Assembly (NCBI GenBank): GCA_013360215.1 | Contig: JABWCP010000007.1 | Span: forward strand, 92,159-156,158 | Length of the DNA stretch: 64,000 nucleotides | Origin: a bacterium | Lineage (GTDB): Bacteria; CLD3; SB21 | Direction: 5' to 3' | Shown here: positions 29,815-47,094 of the stretch, piece after piece | Layout of the letters: the number at the start of each line of letters is the position of its first letter | How positions within the stretch are numbered: position 1 is the first letter of the stretch | Notes under the pieces: generated by a model | Databases searched by the model: none | The model's input: the letters and a program-made list of their open reading frames with translations, nothing else | What the model was told of the DNA's origin: nothing | Translations under genes and position numbers: made by a program

Positions 29815-30789
29815 TCATGCGCCCCACGTCATGCATTGAAATCGGTCGGTATGATCGGCGAGAATTTTCTTTTTATTTTCATCCGTGCTAAAAAACAAAC
29901 CCGTAGCCAGCGCATCCGTGTCGCGTCCATTGGTCCCGACGATAGTCAGGCTTTGGAACTGTGCCCGTTTGGGTTCGGCTAGTTTGGGATCGATCAAATG
30001 ATGGTACACGCGTCCGCCGGAACGGAAATACTGTTCATACGTACCCGACGTCGCGATCGCCTGATCATGCAGTGTCACGATAGTCGCCATCACATCGGCA
30101 CGTTCGGGATCGCGCACACCGACACGCCAGCCTTCGCCGTCGGCTCGCTGGCCCAGTGCGACGATATCTCCTCCCAGATTGATCAGCGCCTGCGTGATCC
30201 CTTCTTTTTTCAAAACTTCGGCGGCACGATCAGCGGCATACCCTTTGGCGATACCGCCAAGATCAAGCCGTACGTCGGGTGATAAAATTTTTACCGACGC
30301 CTCGGAGCCACTCGTCACATGAATAAAACGATGCAGGGACAGTCCGGCGAACCGCTGCCATACGTCTTGCGCGGGCGGCTCCGTGCGATGCTTCACATCC
30401 CAGGTATCGCTCACTTTTCCCAGCCCGGGCTCAAATCCGCCGTCGGTCACTTTGGACCAATGCAGCGCCCGTTCGATCAGATCGGCCGTTTCCGGTGCAA
30501 CGCGAATTTCCGCGCCCGTCACCGCCGCATTGATACGTCCGACATCGCTGGCCGGCGAAAAATATGTCAATAGACTTTCAAGTCTCTGTAATTCCTCAAA
30601 CGCCGCTTCCATGGCGCGATCGGCCCAGCGCGCATCGTCCGACACGACATGGATTTCGCCGATCGTTCCCATCAGAGGGCGCGTCATCGTGTACACACGG
30701 CGTCTTGATAAAAGCAATGGTCCCAGGCCGGCTCCGGCACATACCAGCAGCATGGCGCCGCTTGTTTTGAGAAATTGTCTTCGGTGCAT
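29815..30789 (-). CDS. apbE: FAD:protein FMN transferase ApbE
   Basis: 324 aa from the ATG at 30789, with CGGAG upstream; a longer frame to 30930 overlaps the preceding gene and lacks a site. The N-terminus RRQFLKTSGAMLLVCAGAGL looks like a Tat or lipoprotein export signal. ApbE features follow: RPLMGTIGEIHV, LDLGGIAKGYAADRAAEVL, LINLGGDIVALGQ, and the C-terminal ATSGTYEQYF with YHHLIDPK. It attaches FMN from FAD to a Thr in flavoproteins. Here it ends the rnf gene set, and both RnfG (TGAT) and RnfD (SSAT) carry target sites. Confidence 0.94.
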   Translation of the reverse strand: MHRRQFLKTSGAMLLVCAGAGLGPLLLSRRRVYTMTRPLMGTIGEIHVVSDDARWADRAMEAAFEELQRLESLLTYFSPASDVGRINAAVTGAEIRVAPETADLIERALHWSKVTDGGFEPGLGKVSDTWDVKHRTEPPAQDVWQRFAGLSLHRFIHVTSGSEASVKILSPDVRLDLGGIAKGYAADRAAEVLKKEGITQALINLGGDIVALGQRADGEGWRVGVRDPERADVMATIVTLHDQAIATSGTYEQYFRSGGRVYHHLIDPKLAEPKRAQFQSLTIVGTNGRDTDALATGLFFSTDENKKKILADHTDRFQCMTWGA

Positions 30790-30805
30790 AAAAAAAACTC
30801 CGTTC

Positions 30806-31036
30806 TTATTTCGTCGGTGCAGCCGATCCGGCCCACGGCATTTTTTTGCGAAAGGCTTCCCGCGCTTCGCAATGACCGCCGCCGCAGCTTCCGTCTTCAT
30901 CGCAGTGGCCGCACGACGGCTTATGGTCAAAAAGATTTTTAGTTTTCATACGGCGTGCGATCATCTGAACGATAATCCAGAACGCGCACAAAAATGCCGA
31001 TGCAAAAACGGGCAAGATGTATTTGGCTAATTCCAT
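30806..31036 (-). CDS. Small membrane protein with four-cysteine motif, possible Rnf assembly factor (NqrM-like)
   Basis: 76 aa. The ATG at 31036 lies 4 nt after the rnfA stop. One N-terminal membrane helix (ILPVFASAFLCAFWIIVQMI) is followed by SCGHCDEDGSCGGGHCEA with Cys42, 45, 51 and 56. Size, topology, Cys pattern and position next to apbE resemble NqrM, which matures the membrane [2Fe-2S] centre of Na+-NQR. RnfA and RnfE are the homologues of the NQR subunits that hold this centre. Direct sequence similarity to NqrM is not clear to me, so the role is inference from layout. FeoB-associated Cys-rich proteins are another possible relative. Confidence 0.7.
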   Translation of the reverse strand: MELAKYILPVFASAFLCAFWIIVQMIARRMKTKNLFDHKPSCGHCDEDGSCGGGHCEAREAFRKKMPWAGSAAPTK

Positions 31037-31040
31037 AATT

Positions 31041-31619
31041 TTAATTTGAGCTGAATAATCCGGCGAATCCCATAAACGCCATGGATAAAATACCGGCAAT
31101 AATCAAACTGAGCGCCGTACCCTGCAGTGTTTTAGGAATATCCATAATGCGTGTTTCTTCACGAATACCGGCCATAATCACCAGAGCGAGCGTCATGCCG
31201 CCGCCACCGCCGAGCGCATAAAACAACGCTTGCACCAATCCGTATTCTTTGGACGTCTGGAATAACGCAATGCCGAGAATCGCACAATTGGTCGTGATCA
31301 GCGGAAGATAAATGCCGAGCGCACGAAAAAGTTCCGGGCTTAGTTTTTTGATAACCATTTCCAAAAACTGCACGGTGCTGGCAATCACCACGATAAAACT
31401 GATGAGCCGCAAATACGGCGCATACACAAGTACATAGGTATTAAGAGCCCATGCGCAAATCGCCGTAATGAGCATTACAAAAATATTGGCCAAACCCATA
31501 CGGAATGCCGTCTCAATTTTATTAGACACGCCGAGAAACGGGCAAATGCCGAGAAAATTGGCCAAAGTAAAATTATTGATCAGCAGCGCCGAAATAAATA
31601 TCCAGAGGTATTCGCCCAT
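31041..31619 (-). CDS. rnfA: Rnf complex membrane subunit RnfA
   Basis: 192 aa with six membrane helices. It shows the RnfA/NqrE pattern: LLINNFTLANFLGICPFLGVSNKI, where the Cys in GICPFLGV ligates the membrane [2Fe-2S] cluster, and later ITTNCAILGIALF with the second Cys. GMGLANIFVM-like and GGGGGMTLALVIMAGIREE stretches are also present. Together with RnfE it carries electrons across the membrane in the ferredoxin:NAD+ oxidoreductase. It starts 6 nt after the rnfE stop. Confidence 0.96.
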   Translation of the reverse strand: MGEYLWIFISALLINNFTLANFLGICPFLGVSNKIETAFRMGLANIFVMLITAICAWALNTYVLVYAPYLRLISFIVVIASTVQFLEMVIKKLSPELFRALGIYLPLITTNCAILGIALFQTSKEYGLVQALFYALGGGGGMTLALVIMAGIREETRIMDIPKTLQGTALSLIIAGILSMAFMGFAGLFSSN

Positions 31620-31625
31620 ATACGC

Positions 31626-32252
31626 CTACACTTTCGCCGTTTGACGGCCAAACTTGATCCAATTGATCACAACCAACAGCGAGCCGAGCAATAAAAACCC
31701 GCCCGGCGGTAATATCATAATAACCCACGGTTCGAACGCGTCACCGAAAAGTGATACGCCAAAAAGCGAACCATTGCCTAAAACCTCACGGATGCATGAA
31801 AGCGTCATCAATGCGCCGAGAAAGCCGAGTCCCATACCGAGTGCATCCATTACGGCAAGCCACGGCGGATTTTTGTATGAAAAAGCTTCCTGCCGCCCGA
31901 GTATGATGCAGTTAACCACAATCAAGGCGATGAACGCGCCAAGTTCTTTATGAATTTTAGGGAAAAAAGCTTCGAGCGATTGATCAACTGCCGTCACAAA
32001 TGTGGCGATGATCACAATAAAAGTCGTGATGCGTACTTGTTTAGGTATCCAATGACGCAACATGGACACCAAAAGGCATGAGCCTACAAGAACAAATGTA
32101 GTGGCCAGTCCCATAGCCAGTCCGTTGATCGCCGAATTGGTAACGGCGAGGGTAGGGCACATGCCCAGTACGGCAACAAATGTCGGATTTTCTTTCCACA
32201 GGCCTTTGATCAATTCGTGTGTTGCGCGTCCGCTTTTTTCAATCGCGTTCAT
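31626..32252 (-). CDS. rnfE: Rnf complex membrane subunit RnfE
   Basis: 208 aa, six membrane helices, paralogous to RnfA. The Cys-containing motifs are LGMCPTLAVTNSAINGLAMGLA and IVVNCIILGRQEAFS. These supply the other half of the membrane [2Fe-2S] site. The C-terminus has LPPGGFLLLGSLLVVINW. Its start overlaps the rnfG stop by 4 nt, so synthesis is coupled. Confidence 0.96.
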   Translation of the reverse strand: MNAIEKSGRATHELIKGLWKENPTFVAVLGMCPTLAVTNSAINGLAMGLATTFVLVGSCLLVSMLRHWIPKQVRITTFIVIIATFVTAVDQSLEAFFPKIHKELGAFIALIVVNCIILGRQEAFSYKNPPWLAVMDALGMGLGFLGALMTLSCIREVLGNGSLFGVSLFGDAFEPWVIMILPPGGFLLLGSLLVVINWIKFGRQTAKV

Positions 32253-32938
32253 GGTTGTTTCGGATTATAAGTAAGATTGTTCTGCTGCATGTAATCATCA
32301 ATGGCGGTTTGCCATCGTGTCATGGCCTTTTGTAAAGCACGAATAACAGCTTTCGACGATATGGTCGCGCCGGTGATCGTTTCGACCTGATTGGGTTTGG
32401 TTTTTTTTCCGGTCTTTGCGGCCTCGATCTCCGGTTCGACCGACAGCGCTTTAAAATTGGCGACGAAGTTTTTGTCTTTGATGATTTTATCGCCGAGCCC
32501 GGGCGTTTCTTTATTTTCGAGCACTTCAAATCCGACGATGATTTTTCCGTCGGCCTGATACCCGTAAATGATTTTGATCACATCCGCAAAACCGGGTTCC
32601 GATGCAGGGATCGCAAAACCGACGACCGATTTTTTTTCATCGTACCCGAGAAATATACGATCGCCCTTTTTGGCTTCTTCGCCCTGCGCTTTTTCAAGAC
32701 GGTCGTTTTTTAAAACCAATACTTCATAACTGCGGCAACCCGGTACGACGCGATAGATGGCTTCCTGCAGCGCTTCTTCCTTATTCTGCTCGATGATCGG
32801 CAGCGTCGAAAAATAAGCGACCACTAAAATCAGTCCTGAAAAAAATCCGGCCACGGCCAGCGTCAGGATCAAAATCAATGAGCTGGGTTCGGCTTCTTGC
32901 GGCGCTACGGGTGTTGCGGGTATATGTTGATGTTCCAT
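32249..32938 (-). CDS. rnfG: Rnf complex FMN-binding subunit RnfG
   Basis: 229 aa. A single N-terminal helix (LILILTLAVAGFFSGLILVVAYF) anchors a periplasmic FMN-binding domain. The flavinylation site is ETITGATISS with Thr192 as the expected FMN acceptor, the form read by ApbE (D/E-x-x-T-G-A-T). GFEVLENKETPGLGDKI is also typical. It lies 3 nt after the rnfD stop and overlaps rnfE. RnfG passes electrons between the membrane [2Fe-2S] centre and RnfD. Confidence 0.95.
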   Translation of the reverse strand: MEHQHIPATPVAPQEAEPSSLILILTLAVAGFFSGLILVVAYFSTLPIIEQNKEEALQEAIYRVVPGCRSYEVLVLKNDRLEKAQGEEAKKGDRIFLGYDEKKSVVGFAIPASEPGFADVIKIIYGYQADGKIIVGFEVLENKETPGLGDKIIKDKNFVANFKALSVEPEIEAAKTGKKTKPNQVETITGATISSKAVIRALQKAMTRWQTAIDDYMQQNNLTYNPKQP

Positions 32939-32941
32939 AAT

Positions 32942-33901
32942 TTATTTCGTTCCGTAAACGCGATGGCGCGTAACGCGGTTGATCAACGGCGTTACGGCAT
33001 TCATCAGCAATATGGCATACATCACGCCCTCCGGTAAACCGCCGAAGATGCGGATGAGAACTACTAAAATTCCGATTCCGCTTCCGAAAATCCACATGCC
33101 GCGCACTGTCATAGGCGACGTCACAGGGTCGGTGGCCATAAAGACGGCGCCCAGCATCAAACCGCCGGAGAAAAGCATGTGCATCGGTGAAGGATATAAA
33201 ACCGGGTTGACGATATATAATATACCCGACAGTACGACGGTAGCAGTCATGATAGAAACCGGGATGTGCCAATTGAAAATTTTTCGATAGGCCAGATATA
33301 CGCCGGCTAAAAGTATAATCACGCCGCAGGTTTCGCCAAGCGACCCGGAGGTATGGCCCAGCATAAGCTGTGATAATTCGGTGGCTTCGTGCTGAAACTT
33401 CATACTCGAAAGGGGTGTGGCGCTGGAGATTGCATCTAACGGTTCGCCGTGAAAAAAAGGCCATGCCAGATTAGTACCCCGCGCGGAAAAATATCGTCCG
33501 TCCGGCACCGACCACGTCGTGATCGCCGTGGGAAATGCGGCTTGCAGAAAAGCACGGCCTACCAATGCAGGATTAAAAATATTTTGTCCGAGCCCGCCCC
33601 ATATATACTTACCGATCATGATCGCGATCAGTCCGCCGAGAAATGCCATCCACATCGGAAAGCCCGGCGGTAAGGTCAATGCCAGCAAAAGTCCGGTCAA
33701 TAAAGCACTGCCGTCGAAGAGCGATTGGTGACGCGGATTCGATCCGGACAAAAGCCATTCGGCAAACATGCATCCGCTCACGGCGGCAACCGACAGTAAA
33801 ATCACACTCAGTCCGAAAAAATAATACGCGGCTGCCGCGACCGGCACCAAAGCGTAAATCACTTGACGCATGATCCAAGGCGTCGTCGCTTCGTCATGCA
33901 A
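32942..33901 (-). CDS. rnfD: Rnf complex membrane flavoprotein subunit RnfD
   Basis: 319 aa with about ten membrane helices. It has LLTGLLLALTLPPGFPMWMA, GGLGQNIFNPALVGRAFL and the site DAISSATPLS, with Thr162 as probable FMN acceptor. The usual RnfD site is SGAT; here the Gly is Ser. The C-terminal half has MATDPVTSPMTVRGMWIFGSGIG. RnfD is a core ion-pumping subunit homologous to NqrB. The gene lies 20 nt after the rnfC stop. Confidence 0.95.
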   Translation of the reverse strand: MHDEATTPWIMRQVIYALVPVAAAAYYFFGLSVILLSVAAVSGCMFAEWLLSGSNPRHQSLFDGSALLTGLLLALTLPPGFPMWMAFLGGLIAIMIGKYIWGGLGQNIFNPALVGRAFLQAAFPTAITTWSVPDGRYFSARGTNLAWPFFHGEPLDAISSATPLSSMKFQHEATELSQLMLGHTSGSLGETCGVIILLAGVYLAYRKIFNWHIPVSIMTATVVLSGILYIVNPVLYPSPMHMLFSGGLMLGAVFMATDPVTSPMTVRGMWIFGSGIGILVVLIRIFGGLPEGVMYAILLMNAVTPLINRVTRHRVYGTK

Positions 33902-33921: not shown

Positions 33922-35280
33922 TTAATTTGGATTGGGTTTCGATGACGCTTTCGCCTTTCTTTCACGTATAGCATTTTTGGCAACCCGAAAACTCTGTACT
34001 AAAGGAATTCCCGAAGGACAGACAAACGAACACGACGCGCATTCAAAACAATCCATCACGTGCTGTTCTTCCAGTTCATCATACAAATCTTTACGTGAGA
34101 GCAGCCCCATGAGGGAAGGATTGAGAAACATCGGGCACACATCTATGCAGCGCCCGCACTTGATACATTGGTATGTGGAAAGTTCCTGCACTTCGTTATC
34201 TGTCAGGACAAGTACGCCCGAAATGCCTTTGGTTACGGGTACATCCAACGTTTTTTGCGCGATGCCCATCATCGGCCCGCCGAGCAAAATTCGAACGGCA
34301 TCTTGCGTAACGCCGCCGCACCAATCGATCAGATGGCGAATCGGTGTACCGATCGGCACCATAAGGTTAGCCGGTTTGCGAATAGCCGGACCGGTCACGG
34401 TCACTACGCGCTCAATCAGCGGTACGGCATTTTCAAAATATTGCGCCAGTGCTACCAACGTACCGACATTGGACACAAGTGCGCCGACATCCAGCGGTAA
34501 TTTGCCCGACGGCACTTCCGTTCCCAGTACCGCTTTGATCAACATTTTTTCTGCGCCCTGAGGATATTTGACCCGGAGCGCTACCACTTCATAATCGCAA
34601 TTTTGTTTTTTGATTTCTTCTTGCAACGCTGCGATCGCATCCGGTTTGTTATCTTCCACGCCGATTACGACCCGCTGTGCGGGAACAAAATGTCTGAGTA
34701 TCGTGAGACCATGGACCAAGTCGGCCGCAAACTCTACCATGATGCGATGATCGGATGTAAGAAAAGGTTCGCATTCGCAGCCATTGGCAATGATCGTCGT
34801 ACAGGTTTTTCCTTCGGGGATGGAAAACTTCACATGCGCGGGAAATCCGGCGCCGCCAAGGCCTACCAAACCGGCGCTCTGTACAGCGGCGATAAATTCT
34901 TTGTGCCCCATATTTTTCCAATCCAGCGGTGGTCGCTGCGGTACGGTCTGTGCGCTGTACGGATCGGCTTTGATACGAATAGAGTACACCAGCAATCCGT
35001 TGGGATGCTCGCCGAGTTCGATACCCGTGACGGTACCCGTGACGGGCGCGTGCTGCGCTACGGATACGAAAGCATCCGGCCTCGCGATCACATCGCCGCG
35101 CGTGACGTGTTGGCCTTTTTGTACAAGCGGCACCGACGGTGCGCCCGCATGCTGCGCAACCGGAACGGCGTATTCTTCAACGAAGGGCATGCGTTCGATC
35201 GCAAGATCGGCGGTCTGATCTTTATAAGCTTCGGGATGAATCCCGTGGCGAAACGTCAATCGTGACGACATGTTTTCCAT
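33922..35280 (-). CDS. rnfC: Rnf complex subunit RnfC
   Basis: 452 aa. The N-terminus is the RnfC barrel-sandwich domain. A Complex1_51K-like flavin/NADH domain follows (GLGGAGFPAHVKFSIP, NGCECEPFLTSDHRIM). Two [4Fe-4S] motifs close the protein: CIKCGRCIDVCP from residue 372 and CFECASCSFVCP from residue 411. RnfC is the cytoplasmic NAD+-reacting subunit. Its ATG shares one base with the stop of the large PFOR-like gene upstream (TAATG), which makes that gene a translationally coupled member of the rnf operon. Confidence 0.95.
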   Translation of the reverse strand: MENMSSRLTFRHGIHPEAYKDQTADLAIERMPFVEEYAVPVAQHAGAPSVPLVQKGQHVTRGDVIARPDAFVSVAQHAPVTGTVTGIELGEHPNGLLVYSIRIKADPYSAQTVPQRPPLDWKNMGHKEFIAAVQSAGLVGLGGAGFPAHVKFSIPEGKTCTTIIANGCECEPFLTSDHRIMVEFAADLVHGLTILRHFVPAQRVVIGVEDNKPDAIAALQEEIKKQNCDYEVVALRVKYPQGAEKMLIKAVLGTEVPSGKLPLDVGALVSNVGTLVALAQYFENAVPLIERVVTVTGPAIRKPANLMVPIGTPIRHLIDWCGGVTQDAVRILLGGPMMGIAQKTLDVPVTKGISGVLVLTDNEVQELSTYQCIKCGRCIDVCPMFLNPSLMGLLSRKDLYDELEEQHVMDCFECASCSFVCPSGIPLVQSFRVAKNAIRERKAKASSKPNPN

Positions 35281-38200
35281 TATTGTTTTCCGCTCGCTTG
35301 ATATCCGGAAAGCGCTAATAACTTATCCCGCAACTTGATGCGAGTGGATTCCAGATGATTTGATTCCTGTTGTTTCAGTTTGGTCTCATATTCACTACGC
35401 AGTGTATCGATGGCCGAATTATGTTTTTCGGACCATTCGGCATCCCAATGCGCACGTAATTTGACCGGGTGGGACGAAAGAAGGCCGGCCATTTCGCGAA
35501 GTTGTAACCACGCATCATAGACGACCGCACACGTTTCAGCCAAGATGCCCGATAGTAAATAGAACACGCCTTCGCGTTCATAATACGCGGTATGTTTAGC
35601 ACGCTCTTCAGCGGAAGCCAACCATGTACGAATATCCAAACTTCCGGAAGAGGGTTTGCTTACCGGTGAAAAATGCGATTTCCACATCGGCTGAAGCCAG
35701 GCCCAGTCGGCAAAGGTCACGTTCTTTTCGGTTACAAAATCCAATTGATAATCGGGATTGTGATCAAGGTGTAATAATTCAGCCGCTAATTTTTTCTTCG
35801 CGTCGGGGATGTAGCGCAACAAAGGAAATACACGGGATTCTACGGACATGGCGTACATGTCTTGCAGTTTGAATTTTTCTATCATCATCGGTGTATGCAC
35901 GCACATCATGGCCGGCGTTTGACTGCGCAGACAAGCTGTAATACTGCGGTACATGTCGGCCGGATAGCCGGGGGATACATGAGCCCACGCTGTTTGACGT
36001 TGCGCAAAAAGCATGGCGTTCAATCCCATACGATCGTACATATTTTGTTTGCCACCGGTGGCGGGCTCAGTGACGATCCATTTGATCGGCAAGCCGCTAT
36101 TCATAAGCGCGATGATGTCACCCGCCGGCATGGCATCCAATACGGTCGCATCCGTCACTAAAAGCAAAGGCGGTGTAAGATTCTTTTCTTCTTCCGTAAG
36201 ATCATTCCAAGTGATGGCCGCAATTTGTATATCGTGTTGGGACGGCAAATACGCATTTTGTAATTCGAGATCGGCACGCCGTAAAAGTTTGATATTATCA
36301 ATGATGTGGCGCATTTGCCCGAGGCCGATACCGCGGACGAAGTCCGGAGCGATGGCTTCTGAAAAAACCATGACCGGCACGAGGAACGGATTATCCGGAA
36401 ATTGCCGTGCCCATGCCAGAGTATCATTGCCGCTGATTACCGCCGAATACCGCGCACGTCCGATACCCGTAGGTCCTTTTGTCAAAAGCCAATACAGTTG
36501 TTTCAAGTCACGCAGAAGATACACGGCGCGTTCGATCCACACCGTATCGACGACGCCAAATCGTTGCGAGGAACCAAGTTTTCCGATCAGGGCATCAAGC
36601 GACATGCGTTCCGTGCCGTGTTCGGAAACGGCGGCCAGTAGATGTTCGGTACTTTGTGTCGGTAAAGCGTCGCGCAAAATATTTTGCAATTTATCCGTAA
36701 GATTTTGGATGCGCTTTTCTATCGCGGACGTGTGCGTAAGCATACGTGCCTGTGCCGTCGCTTCGACAGCGGCCGTGATCAGGTGCAACGCGATTTTTTC
36801 CGCCGGTTGGTCCGTGCGTCGGTTGCCGAGTTGCGTCATATAATAATGACGGCTCAGAAATAAGGCGGCCAGCGGATTGTAACTTTCGTTATCTAAATAT
36901 TGTTTGACCGTGGCTCCGGGCGTATCCGGCAGCGCTTCCCAAATCCGGTACGAAGCTTGTAACTGCGCTTCCGACGCCGGATTCACGGGCTGCATGCTAA
37001 GGGCTTGTTCTGAACACGATGCAGCACAAATGCCGCATCCATTGCAAGCATGCGGATCTACGGCCAATGAAAAAATCAAGCCGCTGCCTTTAGCATACTG
37101 TTCCGGTGTTTTGAAAAATGTTTTGGTAATCACAGCCGGAAGCGGGGCAAGATATTGAGCGACGTCGTTCGCTTGCGCGATCAAATTTTCTTTTTTGGAT
37201 GAATCCATTTTCATCTGCACGGCCAGTTTTTCGGCGGCCACAGGAAGCAGGTCGCATAACGATGGGTTGTTCTCTGATACCATCGGATGCAACAGTTTGG
37301 CGAGATTTTTGATTACCGGCGGAGTCATTTCTGTCAGCGATTTTCCGGCCCGTATCGTTTGTTCGACTGCCGACTGTACGAGCGTCTCTGTCGAAAGAGC
37401 TACCATCGGCAGAGCGGATTCAGGGCAATATACGGCACATTGGCCGCAACCGGTGCATGACTCCGATTTTAACACCGGATACATCGCCCGTTGTGCTGTG
37501 GCATTGTGAAACGCCGACGTCGCCGAGGGTATGACCGGTAAGGCATGAAACGGATCGGCCGTCATGGCTTTAGTTTGACCGGACTCTGTAAAAAATCCGA
37601 CACGATCATAAAATGAAGCCACACGTGAATACGGTGCGCCACGATCTTCGTAACGGCGTACGATACCGGGAATGTCAGGCGAAGTCGCAATCATTGTTTT
37701 GGCTGATTCGTCGAGTCCTATCGAACGCGCATTCAAATCCGGAAATTCGCGATGCAGGTTTTGAAAATGAATTTGTTGTTTCGGATACGAGGACTTGGTT
37801 CCGGTAAAATCAAGTTGTATAAAAAACTGACGGCGTCCGCCCGTGCGCATGTGTTCATAAATATTCGCGACTGTTTTTTCCGGCATGTCATAAACGTCCG
37901 TGCCAAATTGACCGGAAAACAAAACAGGTTTTTCACGTTCATTGATTGACGGATATTCCGGGTACGGCGGCGATTTTTTTTGCCCGGCATTTTCGCCGGC
38001 TTTTTGTAATGCCGATATCGTTTCGCGATATAACGGTCCCTCCTGAACAAATCCTCCGGACAGAGGTTCAAGTACGGCCACATTTTTTTTACCACTGATG
38101 GCCTCGCAAACTGCGGTACCGGGAAAAGGCTGCCACACGCGGATATTCGCTACACCGGCTTTTATTTTGGCTATTTTGAGTTGTTCTGCGCCGGACCGAA

Positions 38201-39062
38201 GTGCGGCAATGACAGCGCCTCCGGAGAGGATGAGCTGTTCGGCTTTTTCTGAACCTAAAGTTTCGACGCTTTTATATGGACGACCAAACTGTGTTTGAAA
38301 TTGGTCCCACGCGGCATCGATGATCGGTGCGGCCGCTTCGGAGAAATACACGCCGCCGGCCGCCGCTTCAAACGCATGCATCAGACCGGATTTATCGGCG
38401 CCCAACATAACCGGATAGTCGCTATGAAACCAGTTGGTGATACGCCGCCGCATTTTTCCGAAAATTATTTTTTGTCCGGATGTCGGTGTTTCGATCATAT
38501 CATCGGGATCGCCAAGATAAGTGCGTAAGGCTTCTTCATTTGGAAAAGTAACATGGCCCGCCGATGAGTTTGTCATATCGGCTAAAACCATTACCGGAAT
38601 CATCGTCAGTTCGGCTATACGATGCGCCGCTATGATCATATCGGCCAATTCCTGATGGTTTGCCGCTATCAATTGTATCCATCCGGCTTCACGGGCCAAA
38701 CGACGTACTCGTGTATCGCAAAACGATCCTTCTCCGTTTTCATTTTGTTCACGTTCAAATGCCACGAGTACTACGGGCAAATGACGACGAACGCAGGCGT
38801 GCATCATTTCTGTATCTTGAAGGAGCGCCTGAAGTGTAACTGTTGCAGAGGCGCGAATACCCGAAGAAGCCAATCCCATCGCCTGCCCAAGATTGCGGGC
38901 CGATACGTGCAGTAGCGGTCTTCCGAAAATATTTTGCCCGCTTTCGTCGTGACCGGAAGCCGTCTCCGTCAAAGCCGATGCGATGATATCAAAACACGCC
39001 GCCGCCGTCGTGGTGTTGGTCAAACCGGCGTAAAGAGTATAATTGTTCTTATTGTGCATCAT
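35280..39062 (-). CDS. Large PFOR-like iron-sulfur protein inside the rnf operon
   Basis: 1260 aa. The layout follows pyruvate:ferredoxin oxidoreductase (NifJ): a divergent domain I, a transketolase-C-like region near 260-350 (LILSGGAVIAALRSGAEQL), two ferredoxin motifs at Cys536/539/542/546 and Cys673/676/679/683, and a C-terminal region resembling the TPP domain. However, domain I lacks YPITPS, and the C-terminal region reads LLLVTDATVLDAMPAGDIIA where an active enzyme has GDGWAYDIG. It ends in a coiled coil (about 1205-1255). The start overlaps rnfB by 4 nt and the stop overlaps rnfC. It probably binds clusters and carries electrons to or from Rnf rather than decarboxylating pyruvate; this is inference. 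Confidence 0.85.
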   Translation of the reverse strand: MMHNKNNYTLYAGLTNTTTAAACFDIIASALTETASGHDESGQNIFGRPLLHVSARNLGQAMGLASSGIRASATVTLQALLQDTEMMHACVRRHLPVVLVAFEREQNENGEGSFCDTRVRRLAREAGWIQLIAANHQELADMIIAAHRIAELTMIPVMVLADMTNSSAGHVTFPNEEALRTYLGDPDDMIETPTSGQKIIFGKMRRRITNWFHSDYPVMLGADKSGLMHAFEAAAGGVYFSEAAAPIIDAAWDQFQTQFGRPYKSVETLGSEKAEQLILSGGAVIAALRSGAEQLKIAKIKAGVANIRVWQPFPGTAVCEAISGKKNVAVLEPLSGGFVQEGPLYRETISALQKAGENAGQKKSPPYPEYPSINEREKPVLFSGQFGTDVYDMPEKTVANIYEHMRTGGRRQFFIQLDFTGTKSSYPKQQIHFQNLHREFPDLNARSIGLDESAKTMIATSPDIPGIVRRYEDRGAPYSRVASFYDRVGFFTESGQTKAMTADPFHALPVIPSATSAFHNATAQRAMYPVLKSESCTGCGQCAVYCPESALPMVALSTETLVQSAVEQTIRAGKSLTEMTPPVIKNLAKLLHPMVSENNPSLCDLLPVAAEKLAVQMKMDSSKKENLIAQANDVAQYLAPLPAVITKTFFKTPEQYAKGSGLIFSLAVDPHACNGCGICAASCSEQALSMQPVNPASEAQLQASYRIWEALPDTPGATVKQYLDNESYNPLAALFLSRHYYMTQLGNRRTDQPAEKIALHLITAAVEATAQARMLTHTSAIEKRIQNLTDKLQNILRDALPTQSTEHLLAAVSEHGTERMSLDALIGKLGSSQRFGVVDTVWIERAVYLLRDLKQLYWLLTKGPTGIGRARYSAVISGNDTLAWARQFPDNPFLVPVMVFSEAIAPDFVRGIGLGQMRHIIDNIKLLRRADLELQNAYLPSQHDIQIAAITWNDLTEEEKNLTPPLLLVTDATVLDAMPAGDIIALMNSGLPIKWIVTEPATGGKQNMYDRMGLNAMLFAQRQTAWAHVSPGYPADMYRSITACLRSQTPAMMCVHTPMMIEKFKLQDMYAMSVESRVFPLLRYIPDAKKKLAAELLHLDHNPDYQLDFVTEKNVTFADWAWLQPMWKSHFSPVSKPSSGSLDIRTWLASAEERAKHTAYYEREGVFYLLSGILAETCAVVYDAWLQLREMAGLLSSHPVKLRAHWDAEWSEKHNSAIDTLRSEYETKLKQQESNHLESTRIKLRDKLLALSGYQASGKQ

Positions 39063-39931
39063 AGTTCCTCAGGTAAAACTTCCACACGCCCTATCGGTAG
39101 CGGCGTTGCAGGCGCTTTTTCAAATTGACGGCCTTCCACCCACACGATGGCTCGTGTCGGGCAACGGCGCGTCGCGTCGGGGCGCGCTAATACATTTTGA
39201 CTATAATCAATCACGGGCAAATTATTCTTCATCTGGATCAAACCCGGCGCTGCATCGGCCACACACCGGGAGCACGCATTGCAAGCTACCGAACACCGTT
39301 CCAATGCGGCATCGCCCTCAAGCAGTGAACGGCACTGTACGATCAGTTTCTGACTGACGGGCATGATGGTAAAAAGTTTTTTGGGGCATACATCCACACA
39401 ATCGTTGCACGCCGTGCACTGGATGGGATCGACGACCGGTAGACCGTCGCTATTCATCGTGATCGCGTCAAAATCGCAGACCGATTCGCAATCTCCGAGA
39501 CCTAAACATCCCCATACACAATCTTTCGTTCCGCCGGTAACCATCGCTACACTGCGGCAGGTGCGTTTTCCATAATAGTCGGCCTGGTTGTGGCTTTCTT
39601 GTTTTCCACCGGCACATAAAAGACGTGCTACGCGTTTTTCTTCAAAGCCGGCGGCCACACCGAGGAATTCCGCGATTGATGCTACCGCCGAAGGTGAACT
39701 GACGGTACACTTGCCCGGTTTATTGATGCCGCCGACGACACTTTCTGCAAATGCACGGCAACCCGGGCGACCGCATGCGCCGCAGTTGGAACCCGGTAAC
39801 ATAGATTCGACCTGATCAATGCGCGGATCTTCTTCGACACGCAGCTTTTTATACGCGAACGCCAGTACCGATGCGAAAAGCAGCCCGAGCCCGACCATGA
39901 TCGTTACAGCTATGATGATTTCGGAAAACAC
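39059..39931 (-). CDS. rnfB: Rnf complex ferredoxin-like subunit RnfB
   Basis: 290 aa from a GTG start. One N-terminal membrane helix (about 5-27) precedes the Fe-S domain with Cys50, 53, 58 and 75 (GSNCGACGRPGCRAF...GKC). Ferredoxin-type motifs follow: CVWGCLGLGDCESVC, CTACNDCVDVCP and CSVACNACSRCV. RnfB is the entry point for electrons from ferredoxin. It is longer than the E. coli form because of the extra C-terminal cluster motif and a tail. It lies 29 nt after the smaller PFOR-like gene and overlaps the larger one by 4 nt. Confidence 0.95.
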   Translation of the reverse strand: MFSEIIIAVTIMVGLGLLFASVLAFAYKKLRVEEDPRIDQVESMLPGSNCGACGRPGCRAFAESVVGGINKPGKCTVSSPSAVASIAEFLGVAAGFEEKRVARLLCAGGKQESHNQADYYGKRTCRSVAMVTGGTKDCVWGCLGLGDCESVCDFDAITMNSDGLPVVDPIQCTACNDCVDVCPKKLFTIMPVSQKLIVQCRSLLEGDAALERCSVACNACSRCVADAAPGLIQMKNNLPVIDYSQNVLARPDATRRCPTRAIVWVEGRQFEKAPATPLPIGRVEVLPEEL

Positions 39932-39960
39932 GATAAATTCTTCTTACGTAACAAAAGTTG

Positions 39961-42471
39961 TTAGTTAAAAACGGCAGCCCGCTGGATCAACGCATCCAAT
40001 CCGTCTTCCGAAAGATTGAGCGGTAATCCGGGGTGAATACATTTAGCCGGACATTTCTCAGCCGCTTGCACGATATGCAAATAACTTCCGGCACGGGCGT
40101 CGCCGATATACGCTTGTTTAGCGCTGTTATACTTAAAAATATTCGGATTCAGGTTGATGCATTCATTACAACTTGTACAACGTATCGTTTCAAGCCAAGC
40201 TTCGTTGGATATGACCGGTTCTTCCTCCACCGGTGCAGAAACCGTCGGTGTATCGGACACCGTAGCCGATGTTTCAGCTTTGGACACACTTAAAGAGGGT
40301 ACGGATGAAGGCGTGTTGTGCACAGGCAAAGTATCCAGATCCAACAGCACCGCTGATAATTTTTCCATCGCACTGCGCGCGGTTTCTTCACGCACTTTTT
40401 CAATTTCACTTTGATGAAGCGCATGCAGCGCGTCCAGTGCCCGTTCTTTTTCAGCCGTCATTTCAGTTCGGGTTTTTGCAATCGCCCGCGCAACGTGATA
40501 ACTGTTGATGCCGCCGAATTCCTGAATAAAATGCCATGCATCCAGACGATCCTGCGCCATCAATACGAGCGCATGATCAACCGCCGTTTTGTGTAAAATC
40601 CCGTCTTTATCGGCGGTCCACACATAAGGGATTTTGGTATATGCTTCCGATGGAGGCAGCGCGAGATAATCCGCGAGTAAAACAAGATCCGGTGTCCAGT
40701 GCGAAGGCGGCACATCCATGAAGTGATGCGTCATCGTGTCATCCAACACAAGATGATCGGCAAACGTGAAAGGCAATCGCAGCAAGGTTTCGGTTTTATC
40801 ATATTGCGTGGCGGTCAATTCATACACCGGCCAGTCGCTGTCAGCTTGGGGATTGGCTTCCACACTAAATCGGCTGCCCCATTGAACGCCGCGTTGCGGA
40901 TCGTAGGAATATTCGGGGAAAGCGCGGCTTTCTAATGCGGAACCCGATGCCAGCAGTGCGTGTTCCGATACCGGTGCCAACATATAAAACAACGATGGTG
41001 CCGATTGAGACAATCCGGTGCGGATACCGTGAAACACTTGCTCGGGATGAACCATCGCGGCCTGATACACATACGCCTGGCGATGTGCGACCGCCATCGC
41101 GGCCAGATCATGAGCAAATGAGATAACACCTGTCGGCGCCGCTTGGTCACTGTGGTATCGTGATTGCATGACAAAAAATTTGATCGGACGCCGCGAAGCT
41201 AAGGCTGTCGAAAAATCATGAAGATGGTCACGCAGGATTTCTTCATCCGAAGCTAAAACGACGACCGGCGCACACAAAGCCACCTCCTCATCGCTCAATG
41301 CACGCCAGTCAAATTTTTCAAAATACACATCGTGTACGTCGGCCTCATAACGATCTTGCGATTCAAGTTGCGCGATGCGTTTGGCACGAACCCACGAGGT
41401 CATCGTTTGCATGTACGCATCAAACTGCGCTTCGGCCAATCGCAGCGCCTCTGCACTGGGTGCTATGGATATCCGTGCGGAGGTCATGGTGTCGGTCCAT
41501 GTCATACCGTAACGCGCTTCGATGTCCGGCGTGACGATAAGTAATGCCGATTCTTTGAAAACAGTATCAGGCTGGCTGAGTATCGCCAAAGCTTCAGTTA
41601 TCCGCTTGCGGCGTGCCGGTGCCATCGGCAAGGTCGGTGATGCCGGCAAAACGCGTGATACCGCGGTAAAATCAACAAACGCACTGCCGTAACCATGATT
41701 GCGGGATGCGGCCGATGAATTTTTTGCTTCAGGATTTCTGTGGTCTTCGATGAGAATCATTTCTTGCAACCGCTGACGCAAAACAGCGGCGTCTTTGAGA
41801 AGCCGGGTACGTGCATCCGCGACACGATGACGGAGCGCCGATGAAAGCAATGTAAGCGCCATAGCTTTCGAAAAATCATACAAGTGCCCGTCCTTGGGCA
41901 AATGATCTTTCAGATGCTTTGCGTCCGATAAAAAAGATTTTTCTGTTTCGCCTTTGAGATGCAATTGTTCGGTAAGTCGCGTGACCGCTGTTTCCCAGAT
42001 CGCAGTACATGCTGCGGTGCCGCCGTTTTCACTCAGATATTGGCGAATCATTTGTTCTAACCGCAGCCGGTTGTCTTTGAGTATTTTGGCATCGTCCGCA
42101 CCCGGTGCAAAGGATACTATCGCGTCCTCCAAAAGTTGATTTAGCGTGCGAACGGATTTCGCGTCATCCGATGAAACGGCAATCCAAACGGGATAATCAA
42201 ACCGAATGCGATCGGTATCGCGGAATGGTAAGAGCAATGCCGGCAACCGGTTTTTGGCGATCGCGCCGGAGGCGTCACCGCGATAAAACGCACGGAGATT
42301 TTTCCAGAACAGTGACGTCTGCGAAGGGTCTGCCGCTTTGGATTCCGGGATAAATGGTTTCGCCGCTTTTTCGGATTTTTGTTCCGCACGGGTATGGTCT
42401 TGCGTACCGTGCGTCGACGTGTTTCGCAACACGTGATCGAGATGGGCAAACATAGGATCAGGGCTCGTCAT
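39961..42471 (-). CDS. Second PFOR-like protein with C-terminal ferredoxin, rnf operon
   Basis: 836 aa from the ATG at 42471, which has GAGGA 6 nt upstream. It is a shorter relative of the C-terminal half of the 1260-aa protein. Matching parts are PVVVLASDEEILRD with LLLVTDATVLDAM, the AFPEYSYDP segment with VFPLLRYIP, FTFADHLVLDD with VTFADWAWLQP, and a following coiled coil (about 680-730). A Pro/Ser/Thr-rich linker leads to a ferredoxin with CTSCNECINLN and the distal CPAKC, enough for one [4Fe-4S] cluster. It has no TPP motif and no domain I. It lies between korB and rnfB, so it may shuttle electrons between Kor and Rnf. I know no name for this family. Confidence 0.82.
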   Translation of the reverse strand: MTSPDPMFAHLDHVLRNTSTHGTQDHTRAEQKSEKAAKPFIPESKAADPSQTSLFWKNLRAFYRGDASGAIAKNRLPALLLPFRDTDRIRFDYPVWIAVSSDDAKSVRTLNQLLEDAIVSFAPGADDAKILKDNRLRLEQMIRQYLSENGGTAACTAIWETAVTRLTEQLHLKGETEKSFLSDAKHLKDHLPKDGHLYDFSKAMALTLLSSALRHRVADARTRLLKDAAVLRQRLQEMILIEDHRNPEAKNSSAASRNHGYGSAFVDFTAVSRVLPASPTLPMAPARRKRITEALAILSQPDTVFKESALLIVTPDIEARYGMTWTDTMTSARISIAPSAEALRLAEAQFDAYMQTMTSWVRAKRIAQLESQDRYEADVHDVYFEKFDWRALSDEEVALCAPVVVLASDEEILRDHLHDFSTALASRRPIKFFVMQSRYHSDQAAPTGVISFAHDLAAMAVAHRQAYVYQAAMVHPEQVFHGIRTGLSQSAPSLFYMLAPVSEHALLASGSALESRAFPEYSYDPQRGVQWGSRFSVEANPQADSDWPVYELTATQYDKTETLLRLPFTFADHLVLDDTMTHHFMDVPPSHWTPDLVLLADYLALPPSEAYTKIPYVWTADKDGILHKTAVDHALVLMAQDRLDAWHFIQEFGGINSYHVARAIAKTRTEMTAEKERALDALHALHQSEIEKVREETARSAMEKLSAVLLDLDTLPVHNTPSSVPSLSVSKAETSATVSDTPTVSAPVEEEPVISNEAWLETIRCTSCNECINLNPNIFKYNSAKQAYIGDARAGSYLHIVQAAEKCPAKCIHPGLPLNLSEDGLDALIQRAAVFN

Positions 42472-42502
42472 GGGAGCTTCCTCATTTTTCATAAAATTTC
42501 AA

Positions 42503-42560: not shown

Positions 42561-45257
42561 TTATTTTATGAGGGTCATTTTTTTTGACTGAACGAAATTA
42601 CCAGCTTGTATTCTATAAATATAAATTCCGCTAGCAACCTGCATACCTACATCATCTTTACCATCCCAAAAGGAATCATAATATCCTGCTTCAAGAAAGT
42701 GACCAAACACCGTACGCACCTCTTGCCCTTGCATATTATAAATTTTAAGAGTCACGTTAGACGCCCCGGGTATTCCAAATGAAATAGTTGTCGAAGGGTT
42801 GAAAGGATTAGGATAATTTTGGTCTAATTCAAACTTTGAAGGAGTGAAGTTTACTTTTGTTTTTGATTTTGCTAAGCAAGGTAACGCGTTGGAGTTATTT
42901 GCAATAGCCAAAGGTTCATCGCATCCACCGCCGCCGCCTGAACATACAGAAACTGGTGTGCTTGTTGAAATGGTTTGTGAGCCGCTGGACATGGTTAATG
43001 TCAAAGTAAAATCATAACTAACCTGTAAAGAAATAGATGCACTTGTACCAAGAATAGCACCATTGCGAGTCCATTGATACGAATTCGTTCCAGTACCGCC
43101 GGAAACAACAGCCGAGAAACTCCCTATCTGACCTTTGTTTACACAGGAAGGGCCTTCGATATAAGTAGACAAAGGAAGGTAATACTCACCTGAGTATTCA
43201 ACTTGTGGTCTTGAATTCCCCGCTGTATTAAACGCAACTACTACATAACTTTGCTTACCAACTAGATAAGTACTGTCAGTCCAAGACGTCACATTTGTAC
43301 CAACCGACCCGATTAAGCTGTAGCCATTTAGAGTACCATCCCATACTGAATTTGTGGCTTTTCTATAAATACGAAACCCTTGTTCTTGATTCTCTATTAT
43401 ATCAAACCAATATATACCATAAGTATATTCGCTCGGGCAAGTATTATCATTCCAACTCAAAGTACGCGAATTAGGAGAGCCTGATACTGATAGTGAAGTT
43501 GGGGTTGACGGGAGTGCAGAACCGGATTTCAGGATCAATGAATTATATAATGCATTTATGGATGGGTGATACTTTGATTCCGTTGAATTAATTAGTGCAT
43601 TCCTATATGCCTCAATGTGAGTGTCCCCAATTAATTGGCCTAAGACATTGTAACGACTGATAAATTTACTAATTAAAAACGCAGCAGACAATGATATATC
43701 ATCATTATCCCCTGTGTAATTGGGTGCTCTTAGTCCATTACCATCCCAAAGACTATAAAAAAAGCAAGCAACAGCGCCCTCGACTTTTTTATTGTTTCTA
43801 TCTGGAAATAGTATTCCTTGAGAATAATCCATAAATTGATAAGTCGGTGACGGTCCTGCTTCTACATCGTAACTGCCCCGTTCAGGAAGTGATGGCTGTT
43901 CGACTGAATACCAGTACATGTGGGTGGCAGCAGCATAAAACTCAGCCCAGCCTTCATTCCAGGCTAATGTATTGTTTGTCTCTTTTGAGAACCAGTGTGA
44001 ACTGGAATAATTGGCATCAGCTATAAAGCCGACACGGTCATATTCTATAAAATGCCCATATTCATGATAAGCGGTTTCCGTCCTTGGCGATACATCAAAA
44101 ACAATGCGCGGTGCATTGATGTTTTGACCGCCGCAATTTCCTGGTTGACAGAAAAACGCGCCATCAACATTCCTAAAGTAATAACGAACCTGATGTGGCG
44201 TATAATTTAACTGAGCTATGCTAAATTGGCGAGCTCTGTATAAATGACGAAGAGCGCTACCTTGTTTATCATTAGTTTCGAGATCACGAGCAGCAATGAC
44301 CGACGTAGTCGCACCGGAGATGTCAATCTTGACAGAATTTGAAATAAGTGGTACCATTTTAGCGCCGTTTCCAAGATCGGCATCATAACCTGCTGCGTTC
44401 GCGTTGTTTGCGTAAACACGTATTCTTTGAGAATAGTAGTTGGCCGGCTGTGAACTTGCAAACGTAAAGCTGAAATAGTAGTAGCCATTGTTATCACTGA
44501 TATCGTAGTCAACGTGCAGCGTGTTTCCTCCATAATATGGCGTATAACCGGTTGTTAGATTATCATCATAGTCCCAATCCAGATAGACTCCGACCGCTGG
44601 AATTCCTTTCATGCCATAAGGGTAATAAGGATGGTTGTATTTTATTTGCCCGGAAATCTGAACGGTGATATAATATGTTGATTCGGTCATCTCTTGGTTT
44701 TGAATTTTTTGACCAATACCTCCGTTTTTAAATGTGGTATCCATTGGAATATACGAAGCAGTAGCTTTCTGTTCATTCTCAGACCTATTAACTTCTATAG
44801 GCCATTGGGTATACTTGATACTTGGCTTAGTATCATAATTTGTAACTTCGCCATTTAAGATTTCAATGTAGATTTCAAAACTCTGATATTCAGAGAGTCT
44901 ATTTTTTTCAGATTCATCATTAGCCGGTTTGAAATGTAATTTGATTTGAAGGGTGAAATAGCCGTCCTCTGCAAAACTGAATTCCCATTTCTTAATAAAT
45001 TGTTCAAATTTGTTTTTTCGACCTTCACTTGATTTCATGATGCCGCTTTTCAAAATAAAAGATTCAGGTATACTAAAATCGACGCCTACGTCACCGCTTG
45101 CTTCCATATTGAGCGACAGGTCAATCGAAGCTTGTTTTTTGTTATGAGAAAGTTTCAAATCGTTAAGTTTAAATGGGCTTTTAGTGTCTTCAGATGCGTA
45201 GGTTAGTTTGAATCCAAATAATGCAATAAGAAAAATTAATTTCATAATTCGGGACAT
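42561..45257 (-). CDS. Secreted zinc metalloprotease with T9SS sorting domain
   Basis: 898 aa. AAGGAG lies 7 nt upstream of the ATG. After the signal peptide (MKLIFLIALFGFKLTYA) comes a beta-rich propeptide-like region. The gluzincin site HEYGH is at 398-402 and is followed by NEGWAEF at 434-440, which supplies the third zinc ligand. A fibronectin-III-like domain (about 590-690), a PKD/Ig-like stretch (PSCVNKGQIGSFSAVVSGG) and the C-terminal sorting domain (DQNYPNPFNPSTT...KKMTLIK) follow. It should be delivered to the cell surface or medium by type IX secretion. It is the main gene of the AT-rich island inserted between korB and the rnf genes. Confidence 0.85.
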   Translation of the reverse strand: MSRIMKLIFLIALFGFKLTYASEDTKSPFKLNDLKLSHNKKQASIDLSLNMEASGDVGVDFSIPESFILKSGIMKSSEGRKNKFEQFIKKWEFSFAEDGYFTLQIKLHFKPANDESEKNRLSEYQSFEIYIEILNGEVTNYDTKPSIKYTQWPIEVNRSENEQKATASYIPMDTTFKNGGIGQKIQNQEMTESTYYITVQISGQIKYNHPYYPYGMKGIPAVGVYLDWDYDDNLTTGYTPYYGGNTLHVDYDISDNNGYYYFSFTFASSQPANYYSQRIRVYANNANAAGYDADLGNGAKMVPLISNSVKIDISGATTSVIAARDLETNDKQGSALRHLYRARQFSIAQLNYTPHQVRYYFRNVDGAFFCQPGNCGGQNINAPRIVFDVSPRTETAYHEYGHFIEYDRVGFIADANYSSSHWFSKETNNTLAWNEGWAEFYAAATHMYWYSVEQPSLPERGSYDVEAGPSPTYQFMDYSQGILFPDRNNKKVEGAVACFFYSLWDGNGLRAPNYTGDNDDISLSAAFLISKFISRYNVLGQLIGDTHIEAYRNALINSTESKYHPSINALYNSLILKSGSALPSTPTSLSVSGSPNSRTLSWNDNTCPSEYTYGIYWFDIIENQEQGFRIYRKATNSVWDGTLNGYSLIGSVGTNVTSWTDSTYLVGKQSYVVVAFNTAGNSRPQVEYSGEYYLPLSTYIEGPSCVNKGQIGSFSAVVSGGTGTNSYQWTRNGAILGTSASISLQVSYDFTLTLTMSSGSQTISTSTPVSVCSGGGGGCDEPLAIANNSNALPCLAKSKTKVNFTPSKFELDQNYPNPFNPSTTISFGIPGASNVTLKIYNMQGQEVRTVFGHFLEAGYYDSFWDGKDDVGMQVASGIYIYRIQAGNFVQSKKMTLIK

Positions 45258-45274
45258 AATGAATCTCCTTAATC

Positions 45275-45787
45275 CTATTTATATGGTTTAACAAGACAAT
45301 CACTAGGCACTCCGTCATCGACAGGTCCAAACTTTGAACGGGTTTCCACCGAATTGACGAGATAGTATTGCAGACTGTCTATAACATACAGCGAATCCAT
45401 TCGGAATAGAAAACATGCCAAGATTCGTAAATTGGTAGCATCGCCTAGGTCTATGATTTTCCACATCTGTTCATATACAGAATCCTTTTCAAAGACAACT
45501 TCTCCGTACGTAATATGACTTACAGAGTCGGAACCCAAAGTATCTAAGAACGGGGAAGTAATAATAATACTTCCTGCTGAAAGCATAATTATTCCTTTTC
45601 CATCAAAAGCGGGCTTGATGCGCGTTTTAACTGTAATTGTGTCGCCAACTTTAATGCTATCGACATTGCAGTTTATTTGTAGGCTCCCGGTTTCAAACAC
45701 ACTAGGACCTGAATAGGGTTCCGGTTCATCTTTATGATTACATGAAATAATCGCATAAGAAAATAAGAAAAGAATTAGCGTTTTCAT
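45275..45787 (-). CDS. Lipoprotein, unknown
   Basis: 170 aa. A strong AAGGGGG site precedes the ATG. The lipoprotein signal ends AIISC. The mature part has an Ig-like beta look (VDSIKVGDTITVKTRIKPAFDGKG) but I cannot name a family. It is 17 nt upstream of the metalloprotease gene and 12 nt downstream of a small exported-protein gene, so the three form one operon in the island. Confidence 0.65.
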   Translation of the reverse strand: MKTLILFLFSYAIISCNHKDEPEPYSGPSVFETGSLQINCNVDSIKVGDTITVKTRIKPAFDGKGIIMLSAGSIIITSPFLDTLGSDSVSHITYGEVVFEKDSVYEQMWKIIDLGDATNLRILACFLFRMDSLYVIDSLQYYLVNSVETRSKFGPVDDGVPSDCLVKPYK

Positions 45788-46140: not shown

Positions 46141-47094
46141 TTACACCGCAAATTTGTCTAATTCCTTGTGGATCGCGCGCATTTTGTCCTCCGGTGAAAT
46201 GCCGAGATTGTGCGCACCGTAATCATCATACCGTTCGGCGTTCTTATTCTGATACAAAAGGCCGATCACTTCGCGGTCATGATTGCCCGCCAAAGTTCTG
46301 GCCTGATTGATATCCGACGGATCATGCTCGACCACGTTTTTATATATTTTTGTGATCGCGGGGTCAACTTGAATTCCGTTTTTATGCGTCAAAAGTGTGA
46401 TCGCATCGGGACTGCTCATGGTTGTCTGAAAAAGATCTTTTTGGAAAACCGGGCAACGTTGTAAAACGCGGATAAACGACAAACCGGGATGATTGTAACC
46501 GGCTTCGATCGTAGCGTACAGATGCGCCGGATTCCAATCTACCGTCTGTGCGACGAAGGAAACATTGGAGACGCCGAGCGTGGTTTGTATCGGATTGATC
46601 GGAGGTAATTGCGATCCGCGCGGTGAGGTATTGGAAACTGTACCTTTATTGGAAGTCGGTGAAGCTTGTCCTTTGGTCAATCCATAAATTTCGTTGTCCA
46701 GAAGCAGCACGGTGATATTCATATTATAGCGAATGGCGTGAATCCAATGCGCCGTACCGATGGAGCAACAATCGCCGTCGCCGGTGGCGACAAACACATG
46801 CAGATCCGGACGGCGAAATTTGATACCATTGGCTACGGGAAGTGCACGGCCGTGCAAACCGTGAAATCCGTAGGTTTTCATATAATGCGGCAGACGGCTC
46901 GAACAGCCGATGCCGGACACAAATACTGTTTTTTCGGGCGGTAATTGTTTTTCGCTGCACAGTCTTTGTACAGCGGTCAAAATGCCGTGATCGCCGCATC
47001 CCGGACACCAGCGTGCCGTTGCGCTTTCATAGTCGGCTAACGTGTAATAATCCTCAGGTATATCGAGGACGCAATCGGATTTTAATCCAAACAC
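46141..47094 (-). CDS. korB: 2-oxoglutarate:ferredoxin oxidoreductase beta subunit
   Basis: 317 aa. TPP-binding beta subunit: WCPGCGDHGILTAVQRL near residue 30, VSGIGCSSRLPHYM, ATGDGDCCSIGTAHWIHAIRYN (Mg-TPP motif GDGD) and LLDNEIYGLTKGQASPTS. The family includes KorB and PorB; KorB is favoured by length and by the gamma-alpha fusion partner. Its last codons (ELDKFAV) form one copy of the 19-bp repeat that brackets the adjacent island. It is 43 nt downstream of korA. Confidence 0.92.
   Translation of the reverse strand: MFGLKSDCVLDIPEDYYTLADYESATARWCPGCGDHGILTAVQRLCSEKQLPPEKTVFVSGIGCSSRLPHYMKTYGFHGLHGRALPVANGIKFRRPDLHVFVATGDGDCCSIGTAHWIHAIRYNMNITVLLLDNEIYGLTKGQASPTSNKGTVSNTSPRGSQLPPINPIQTTLGVSNVSFVAQTVDWNPAHLYATIEAGYNHPGLSFIRVLQRCPVFQKDLFQTTMSSPDAITLLTHKNGIQVDPAITKIYKNVVEHDPSDINQARTLAGNHDREVIGLLYQNKNAERYDDYGAHNLGISPEDKMRAIHKELDKFAV
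46145..46163. repeat. Direct repeat flanking the island, copy inside korB 3' end
   Basis: Identical 19-mer to 42503-42521. It covers the last six codons of korB. The two copies are 3.6 kb apart and enclose exactly the three AT-rich island genes. Confidence 0.95.

Follow-up and report, generated by a model that had tools for sequence, protein, structure and literature searches.

Within the rnf operon of a 64,000-nucleotide stretch of bacterial DNA (the window; GenBank assembly GCA_013360215.1, contig JABWCP010000007.1, positions 92,159–156,158; lineage CLD3, SB21), two genes encode large proteins whose sequences suggest two complementary derivatives, both catalytically dead, of an Rnf-linked pyruvate:ferredoxin oxidoreductase (PFOR). 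Protein A (P1260; 1260 aa; 35280–39062) carries two [4Fe-4S] motifs, and protein B (836 aa; 39961–42471) combines a PFOR C-terminal half with a single [4Fe-4S] ferredoxin. Both genes, like the rnf, apbE and kor genes of the window located below, lie on the reverse strand. The best explanation, which we consider somewhat more probable than all others together, is that A and B are dead derivatives of this enzyme that relay electrons between the 2-oxoacid oxidoreductase KorAB and the Rnf subunit RnfB.

PFOR architecture of proteins A and B

A first-pass annotation of the window had read A as a NifJ-like protein with two four-cysteine cluster motifs that lacks YPITPS and GDG, and Pfam searches and alignment bear this out. 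Pfam and fold comparison recover the domain order of a PFOR: a degenerate POR_N domain (aa 61–180; 38523–38882; Pfam E 1.9e-14; PorA 9bt4 matched in fold at Z 32), a PFOR_II domain (aa 274–355; 37998–38243; Pfam E 1.6e-8), a split ferredoxin domain found by Pfam, with two CxxCxxCxxxC motifs ~130 aa apart (aa 533–698; 36969–37466), and a thiamine diphosphate (TPP)-type C-terminal domain identified by alignment and fold, without GDG, NTGG or the proximal-cluster cysteines (aa 737–1150; 35613–36854). All eight cysteines of the two-cluster ferredoxin domain are present in the alignment. The protein ends in a long helix (aa 1198–1251; 35310–35471) that sequence comparison and the structure model place in B and in intact Rnf-linked PFORs as well. 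The POR gamma domain is gone (Pfam), and A scores 98.6 bits against the NCBIfam NifJ model TIGR02176, whose cut-off is 911. The predicted structure resembles PFOR over almost its full length (Foldseek E 2e-20), with a Z-score of ~32 for the PorA domain.

Protein B runs from an ATG at 42471 to a stop at 39961; an alternative upstream ATG at 42492 would make it 843 aa. Its only Pfam match is Fer4_13, a single [4Fe-4S] ferredoxin (aa 759–813; 40033–40197); the TPP-like part is named by neither NCBIfam nor Pfam and is recognised by structure only. The model of B (pLDDT 80, pTM 0.70) aligns over aa 103–654 (40510–42165) with the PFOR C-terminal (domain VI) fold and includes a 55-residue C-terminal helix (aa 658–712; 40336–40500). 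It resembles the C-terminal part of solved PFORs (Moorella 6cin_B, Z 24.0 over 296 residues), compared with Z ~13.6 for other TPP enzymes. Single-chain prediction, which had been suggested as a check, thus returned PFOR folds for both proteins. The earlier claim that B matches the C-terminal half of A and adds one ferredoxin is likewise upheld: residues 361–719 of B align with 917–1251 of A at 24% identity over ~360 residues (E 8e-10). In profile alignment, the part of B ahead of its TPP-like domain pairs with the region of A that holds the ferredoxin domain, and the cysteines of this part are gone. B represents most of a PFOR C-terminal half that has lost the cysteines of the ferredoxin domain.

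Loss of catalytic residues and retention of cluster cysteines

Residues were compared in an alignment of 58 proteins, including 23 A, 25 B and intact PFORs. No A and no B retains any TPP motif or any of the four cysteines of the proximal cluster. YPITPS, GGDG and NTGG are absent from both families, and the aligned columns are substituted or gapped relative to intact PFORs; the positions once held by GDG, NTGG, YPIT and the proximal-cluster cysteines now carry varied residues that form no new conserved motif. In the same motif scan, the NifJ of the window's own genome (L040) and KorA and KorB of the window retain their motifs. An intact TPP site elsewhere in the proteins was looked for, and none was found. 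GGDG matches in four A proteins (L108, L111, L117 and L118) are due to chance, as their positions lie outside the aligned site. The earlier view that A and B are former oxidoreductases is strongly supported by the retained fold and by the finding that no homologue tested has the TPP site or the ligands of the proximal cluster.

The cysteines of the other clusters have a different fate. All eight ferredoxin cysteines are retained in 22 of the 23 A, and the four Fer4_13 cysteines in 24 of the 25 B. The losses are complementary: the tail ferredoxin is gone from A, and the cysteines of the two-cluster domain are gone from B. Judged by these residues, A and B together appear to hold the full wire of their ancestor and none of its chemistry. 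The A of one Flavobacteriales metagenome-assembled genome (MAG; L055, 9950–13627) has lost most of its ferredoxin cysteines, either genuinely or through an error in the MAG.

Among three genomes of the same genus, the ratio of non-synonymous to synonymous substitution (Ka/Ks) stands at 0.17 in A and 0.14 in B, compared with 0–0.06 for the Kor and Rnf genes. These values indicate that A and B are under purifying selection and not decaying; both are functional, though under constraint several-fold weaker than that on the surrounding enzymes. Identity among related loci is 40–45% for A and B, as against 75–85% for most Rnf and Kor subunits.

Probable descent from a PFOR of the rnf operon

The comparison with NifJ made in the first-pass annotation holds for layout and fold. 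NifJ is, however, not their closest relative: the nearest intact homologues of A and B are PFORs of ~1650 aa encoded in rnf operons. These giant PFORs, which contain A-type and B-type modules in one chain, have YPITP, GGDG, NTGG and every proximal-cluster cysteine; their ferredoxin domain is of the two-cluster type, and the chain continues through the long tail helix to a Fer4_13 at its end. In a tree with NifJ as outgroup, A forms one clade and B another (bootstrap 100% each) beside the tail-bearing giant PFORs, and the three group together to the exclusion of other PFORs (97). Derivation from the genome's own NifJ is not supported by this separation, and a two-gene PFOR (650 + 517 aa; L035–L038) that was considered as an ancestor falls outside the tail-bearing clade. 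The B of L058 retains a PFOR_II domain, a hint that B derives from an enzyme of full length.

The giant PFOR gene lies immediately upstream of rnfC, and between rnfB and rnfC in L124, L125 and L126, at the position of A. Among 20 gammaproteobacterial genomes read out by hand, it directly precedes rnfC in 18, adjacency not being established in the other two. In Persicobacter (L128) the order is PFOR–rnfCDGEA with rnfB downstream, and in Gemmatirosa (L129) korAB lies upstream of PFOR–rnfC. One genome (G184, L119) encodes an intact PFOR–RnfC–RnfD–RnfG–RnfE–RnfA, RnfB and KorA–KorB–B; B may therefore also occur together with the catalytically intact enzyme. An acidobacterial locus (L053) has an intact giant PFOR without rnf nearby, and B is encoded elsewhere in the same genome. 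Persicobacter psychrovividus and Gemmatirosa kalamazoonensis (their PFORs found in a plasmid collection, without annotation there) are cultured species with the intact enzyme, in which a direct link to Rnf is testable.

Operon position and distribution

In the window, the gene for A overlaps rnfB (39059–39931; NCBIfam) by 4 nt (ATGA), and its TAA shares one base with the ATG of rnfC (33922–35280; TIGR01945, 520 bits), as first annotated. The order KorA–KorB–B–RnfB–A–RnfC–RnfD–RnfG–RnfE–RnfA–ApbE is kept in genomes of the same family as far as their contigs reach. A scan of genome collections found it again, up to RnfA, in Cyclobacteriaceae, Phaeodactylibacter, Flavobacteriales, one gammaproteobacterium and one deltaproteobacterium. 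Absence of the pair from other rnf operons had been named as a refuting result; the pair is present in other rnf operons of several phyla.

RnfC exceeds its family cut-off in exactly five of nine genomes of the window's phylum, the same five that encode A, and in 30 of the 32 genomes with A, B or a giant PFOR; the two exceptions have only B and KorAB. In an even sample of 369 Gammaproteobacteria, B occurs in about a dozen and a ~1650-aa protein with a B-like tail in some twenty, while RnfC exceeds the cut-off in 210; the module is thus found in a minority of rnf operons. B was found in 4 of 395 Bacteroidota. Many gammaproteobacteria have two RnfC genes, the copy beside PFOR or A being mostly shorter (~450–520 aa) than the other (~500–680 aa), which suggests two types of rnf operon.

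Two features of this distribution had escaped the first-pass annotation: the intact PFOR at A's position in other rnf operons, and the association of B with KorAB rather than with Rnf. In three gammaproteobacterial genomes of sulphur-oxidiser type (Thiotrichaceae, Thiomargarita and Sedimenticola), A is not beside Kor or B, and B and KorA adjoin on another contig; co-occurrence of A, B and KorA holds here without visible linkage. B tracks KorAB even without Rnf, and A tracks Rnf through rnfB and rnfC, a pattern that fits B as the Kor-side part and A as the Rnf-side part. In one genome without RnfC over the cut-off (G680; L122, 7152–10070), a 972-aa B homologue with three tandem Fer4_13 domains lies beside korAB. 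In another (G237; L121, 5793–14086), B is flanked by two different KorAB pairs with no Rnf nearby.

The remaining rnf genes of the window, rnfD, rnfG, rnfE and rnfA (31041–33901), are open reading frames assigned from order and homology across loci, not by family search. They are followed by a flavin transferase gene, apbE (29815–30930; NCBIfam), which is conserved in L031, L033 and L034 and probably begins further downstream than the listed TTG. Between korB and B (42561–45787) lie two further genes. One encodes an 898-aa protein that carries a sorting-type domain at its C-terminus (peptidase-like by eye); the product of the other is lipoprotein-like and 170 aa long. This insertion occurs in the window's genome only; related loci lack it.

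Identity of KorAB and metabolic context

KorA (47138–49045; TIGR03710) has an intact YPITPA motif, and its best solved relative is the 2-oxoglutarate:ferredoxin oxidoreductase (OGOR) of Magnetococcus marinus (6n2n, E 6.5e-83). KorB (46141–47094) has an intact GDG motif and scores 245 bits with TIGR02177, just under the cut-off. With the TPP motifs of both subunits in place, KorAB is probably an OGOR. In some gammaproteobacterial operons, succinyl-CoA ligase genes (sucCD) lie between A and rnfC, and the malate dehydrogenase gene mdh lies near rnfA; in L051 and L055 the cluster has sucAB beside it. The window's genome has SucA, the E1 subunit of 2-oxoglutarate dehydrogenase, whereas G001, G003, G005, G006 and the deltaproteobacterium G073 lack it, which is weak evidence in draft genomes. 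This absence and the neighbouring sucCD, sucAB and mdh genes would favour 2-oxoglutarate as the substrate of KorAB.

Upstream of korA in L109 (1281–4801), with counterparts in L112–L115, are genes for a small [2Fe-2S]-like protein, a TfrA-like flavoprotein and a NuoF-like protein. By resemblance this set is possibly an NADH-linked fumarate reductase or succinate dehydrogenase. The TfrA- and NuoF-like genes would also fit the reductive direction in sulphur oxidisers.

A proposed electron relay and its alternatives

The putative ancestor, represented today by the giant PFORs, would have combined a TPP site and a proximal cluster with a ferredoxin domain for two clusters, a long helix and, at the C-terminus, a ferredoxin for one more cluster; its gene would have stood directly before rnfC. 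From it, A would have kept the two-cluster domain and B the one-cluster ferredoxin, the TPP site and proximal cluster being lost in both. It is proposed that KorAB hands electrons to the ferredoxin of B, and that A, translated between RnfB and RnfC, may dock B and KorAB on RnfB. Three [4Fe-4S] clusters, two in A and one in B, would then relay electrons to or from Rnf without free ferredoxin. The descent, the loss and retention of motifs, selection, synteny and co-occurrence are demonstrated by the comparisons above; from the sequences we infer cluster assembly, the contacts of A with B and with RnfB, and the path and direction of the electrons.

Several points weigh against this relay. If the MAG behind L055 is not faulty, the wire is dispensable there; B occurs beside KorAB without Rnf in two genomes (G680 and G237); and the model of A (residues 61–1260) is mediocre, with pLDDT 69 and pTM 0.48. 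Furthermore, support for A and B as sisters is 73/86, and the alternatives are not rejected (approximately unbiased test, 0.16 and 0.47), so the two may be either sisters or separate derivatives; a single joint loss of catalysis is favoured by the tree but not proven.

The same occurrence of B with KorAB in the absence of Rnf, once with three tandem Fer4_13 domains, would suit a looser arrangement in which no stable assembly forms: KorAB would use B as a large carrier or acceptor ferredoxin, Rnf would have in A a subunit that docks ferredoxin, and exchange would be by diffusion. That A stays with rnfB and rnfC in genomes whose Kor and B genes lie on other contigs points the same way. Such an arrangement leaves unexplained the bulky PFOR-like domain and long helix shared by both proteins and their regular co-occurrence, and we regard it as unlikely, if still a serious contender. 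Pseudoenzymes often turn into scaffolds, and A and B might be assembly, protection or regulatory factors that, for example, shield oxygen-sensitive KorAB or RnfB or sense CoA or acyl-CoA, their clusters serving stability or sensing. The relaxed constraint relative to enzyme subunits and the L055 protein without ferredoxin cysteines agree with such roles, but near-universal retention of exactly the redox cysteines is unexpected for a pure scaffold, and this reading seems to us distinctly improbable.

Retention of the TPP-domain fold in the structure models would be compatible with an altered catalytic activity of A or B in which the former TPP site takes a different cofactor or substrate. Replacement of the catalytic and proximal-cluster residues by varied ones without a new motif, together with loss of the POR gamma domain from A, makes this very improbable. 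Fast divergence is what decaying PFOR remnants would show, but intact frames, translational coupling, conservation across phyla and, above all, the Ka/Ks ratios, which rule out pseudogene decay, leave that idea scarcely credible.

Rnf is thought to draw electrons from diffusible ferredoxin. The conserved placing of a PFOR, or of a dead pair with a 2-oxoglutarate oxidoreductase, among the genes of the Rnf transcription unit suggests instead that an enzyme of central carbon metabolism is wired directly to an ion pump. Beyond the relay itself, a bolder and more doubtful proposal is that KorAB, B, A and Rnf make up a single particle on the membrane, an ion-pumping 2-oxoglutarate:NAD+ oxidoreductase that does without free ferredoxin, or runs in reverse for reductive carboxylation, having evolved from a direct pyruvate:NAD+ ion-pumping PFOR–Rnf machine still extant elsewhere. 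If such a single particle exists, a step of the tricarboxylic acid (TCA) cycle would be a direct energy-coupling site. The pair is also a clear example of how one redox enzyme can give rise to two complementary pseudoenzymes.

Comparison with known systems

No description of the A/B pair, its operon position or the intact Rnf-linked PFOR was found in the main texts of open-access literature, and the A/B module and the Rnf-linked giant PFOR are apparently undescribed. The earlier suggestion of an undescribed Rnf accessory module stands at the genome level, with conserved order in several phyla, co-occurrence when unlinked and no paper found. A term search of a recent Rnf review gave no mention of PFOR or of accessory or additional subunits (PMC12174285). 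In the portions covered here, studies of tubeworm symbionts report dimeric korAB near TCA genes and Rnf clustered with genes of the reductive TCA cycle (PMC6315080), and a 'PFOR-like' gene of unknown role regulated with dimeric korAB (PMC11636981). The same portions do not describe active-site loss, B or the rnfB–A–rnfC position; the 'PFOR-like' gene may or may not be A or B.

Canonical PFOR (NifJ, TIGR02176; Moorella 6CIN, Desulfovibrio africanus 1B0P) shares with A the order POR_N–PFOR_II–2[4Fe-4S]–TPP fold and with B the C-terminal (domain VI) fold. A and B differ from it in lacking the TPP site and proximal-cluster ligands and in having the extra long helix; A lacks POR gamma, and B adds Fer4_13. 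The giant PFORs (L119, L123–L126, L128 and L129; L053 without rnf) form the closest intact clade, with the pre-rnfC position and tail helix of A and the Fer4_13 tail of B, but they have all catalytic motifs in ~1650 aa, and Kor and B adjoin only some of them. All six subunit genes of the Rnf complex (RnfABCDGE, a Na+/H+ ferredoxin:NAD+ oxidoreductase) and apbE are present in the window, where, unlike in the known complex, A is inserted and KorAB–B lies upstream. KorAB resembles the two-subunit OGOR of Magnetococcus (6N2N), the best PDB match of KorA, and lacks a ferredoxin subunit of its own; here it is genetically tied to B and Rnf.

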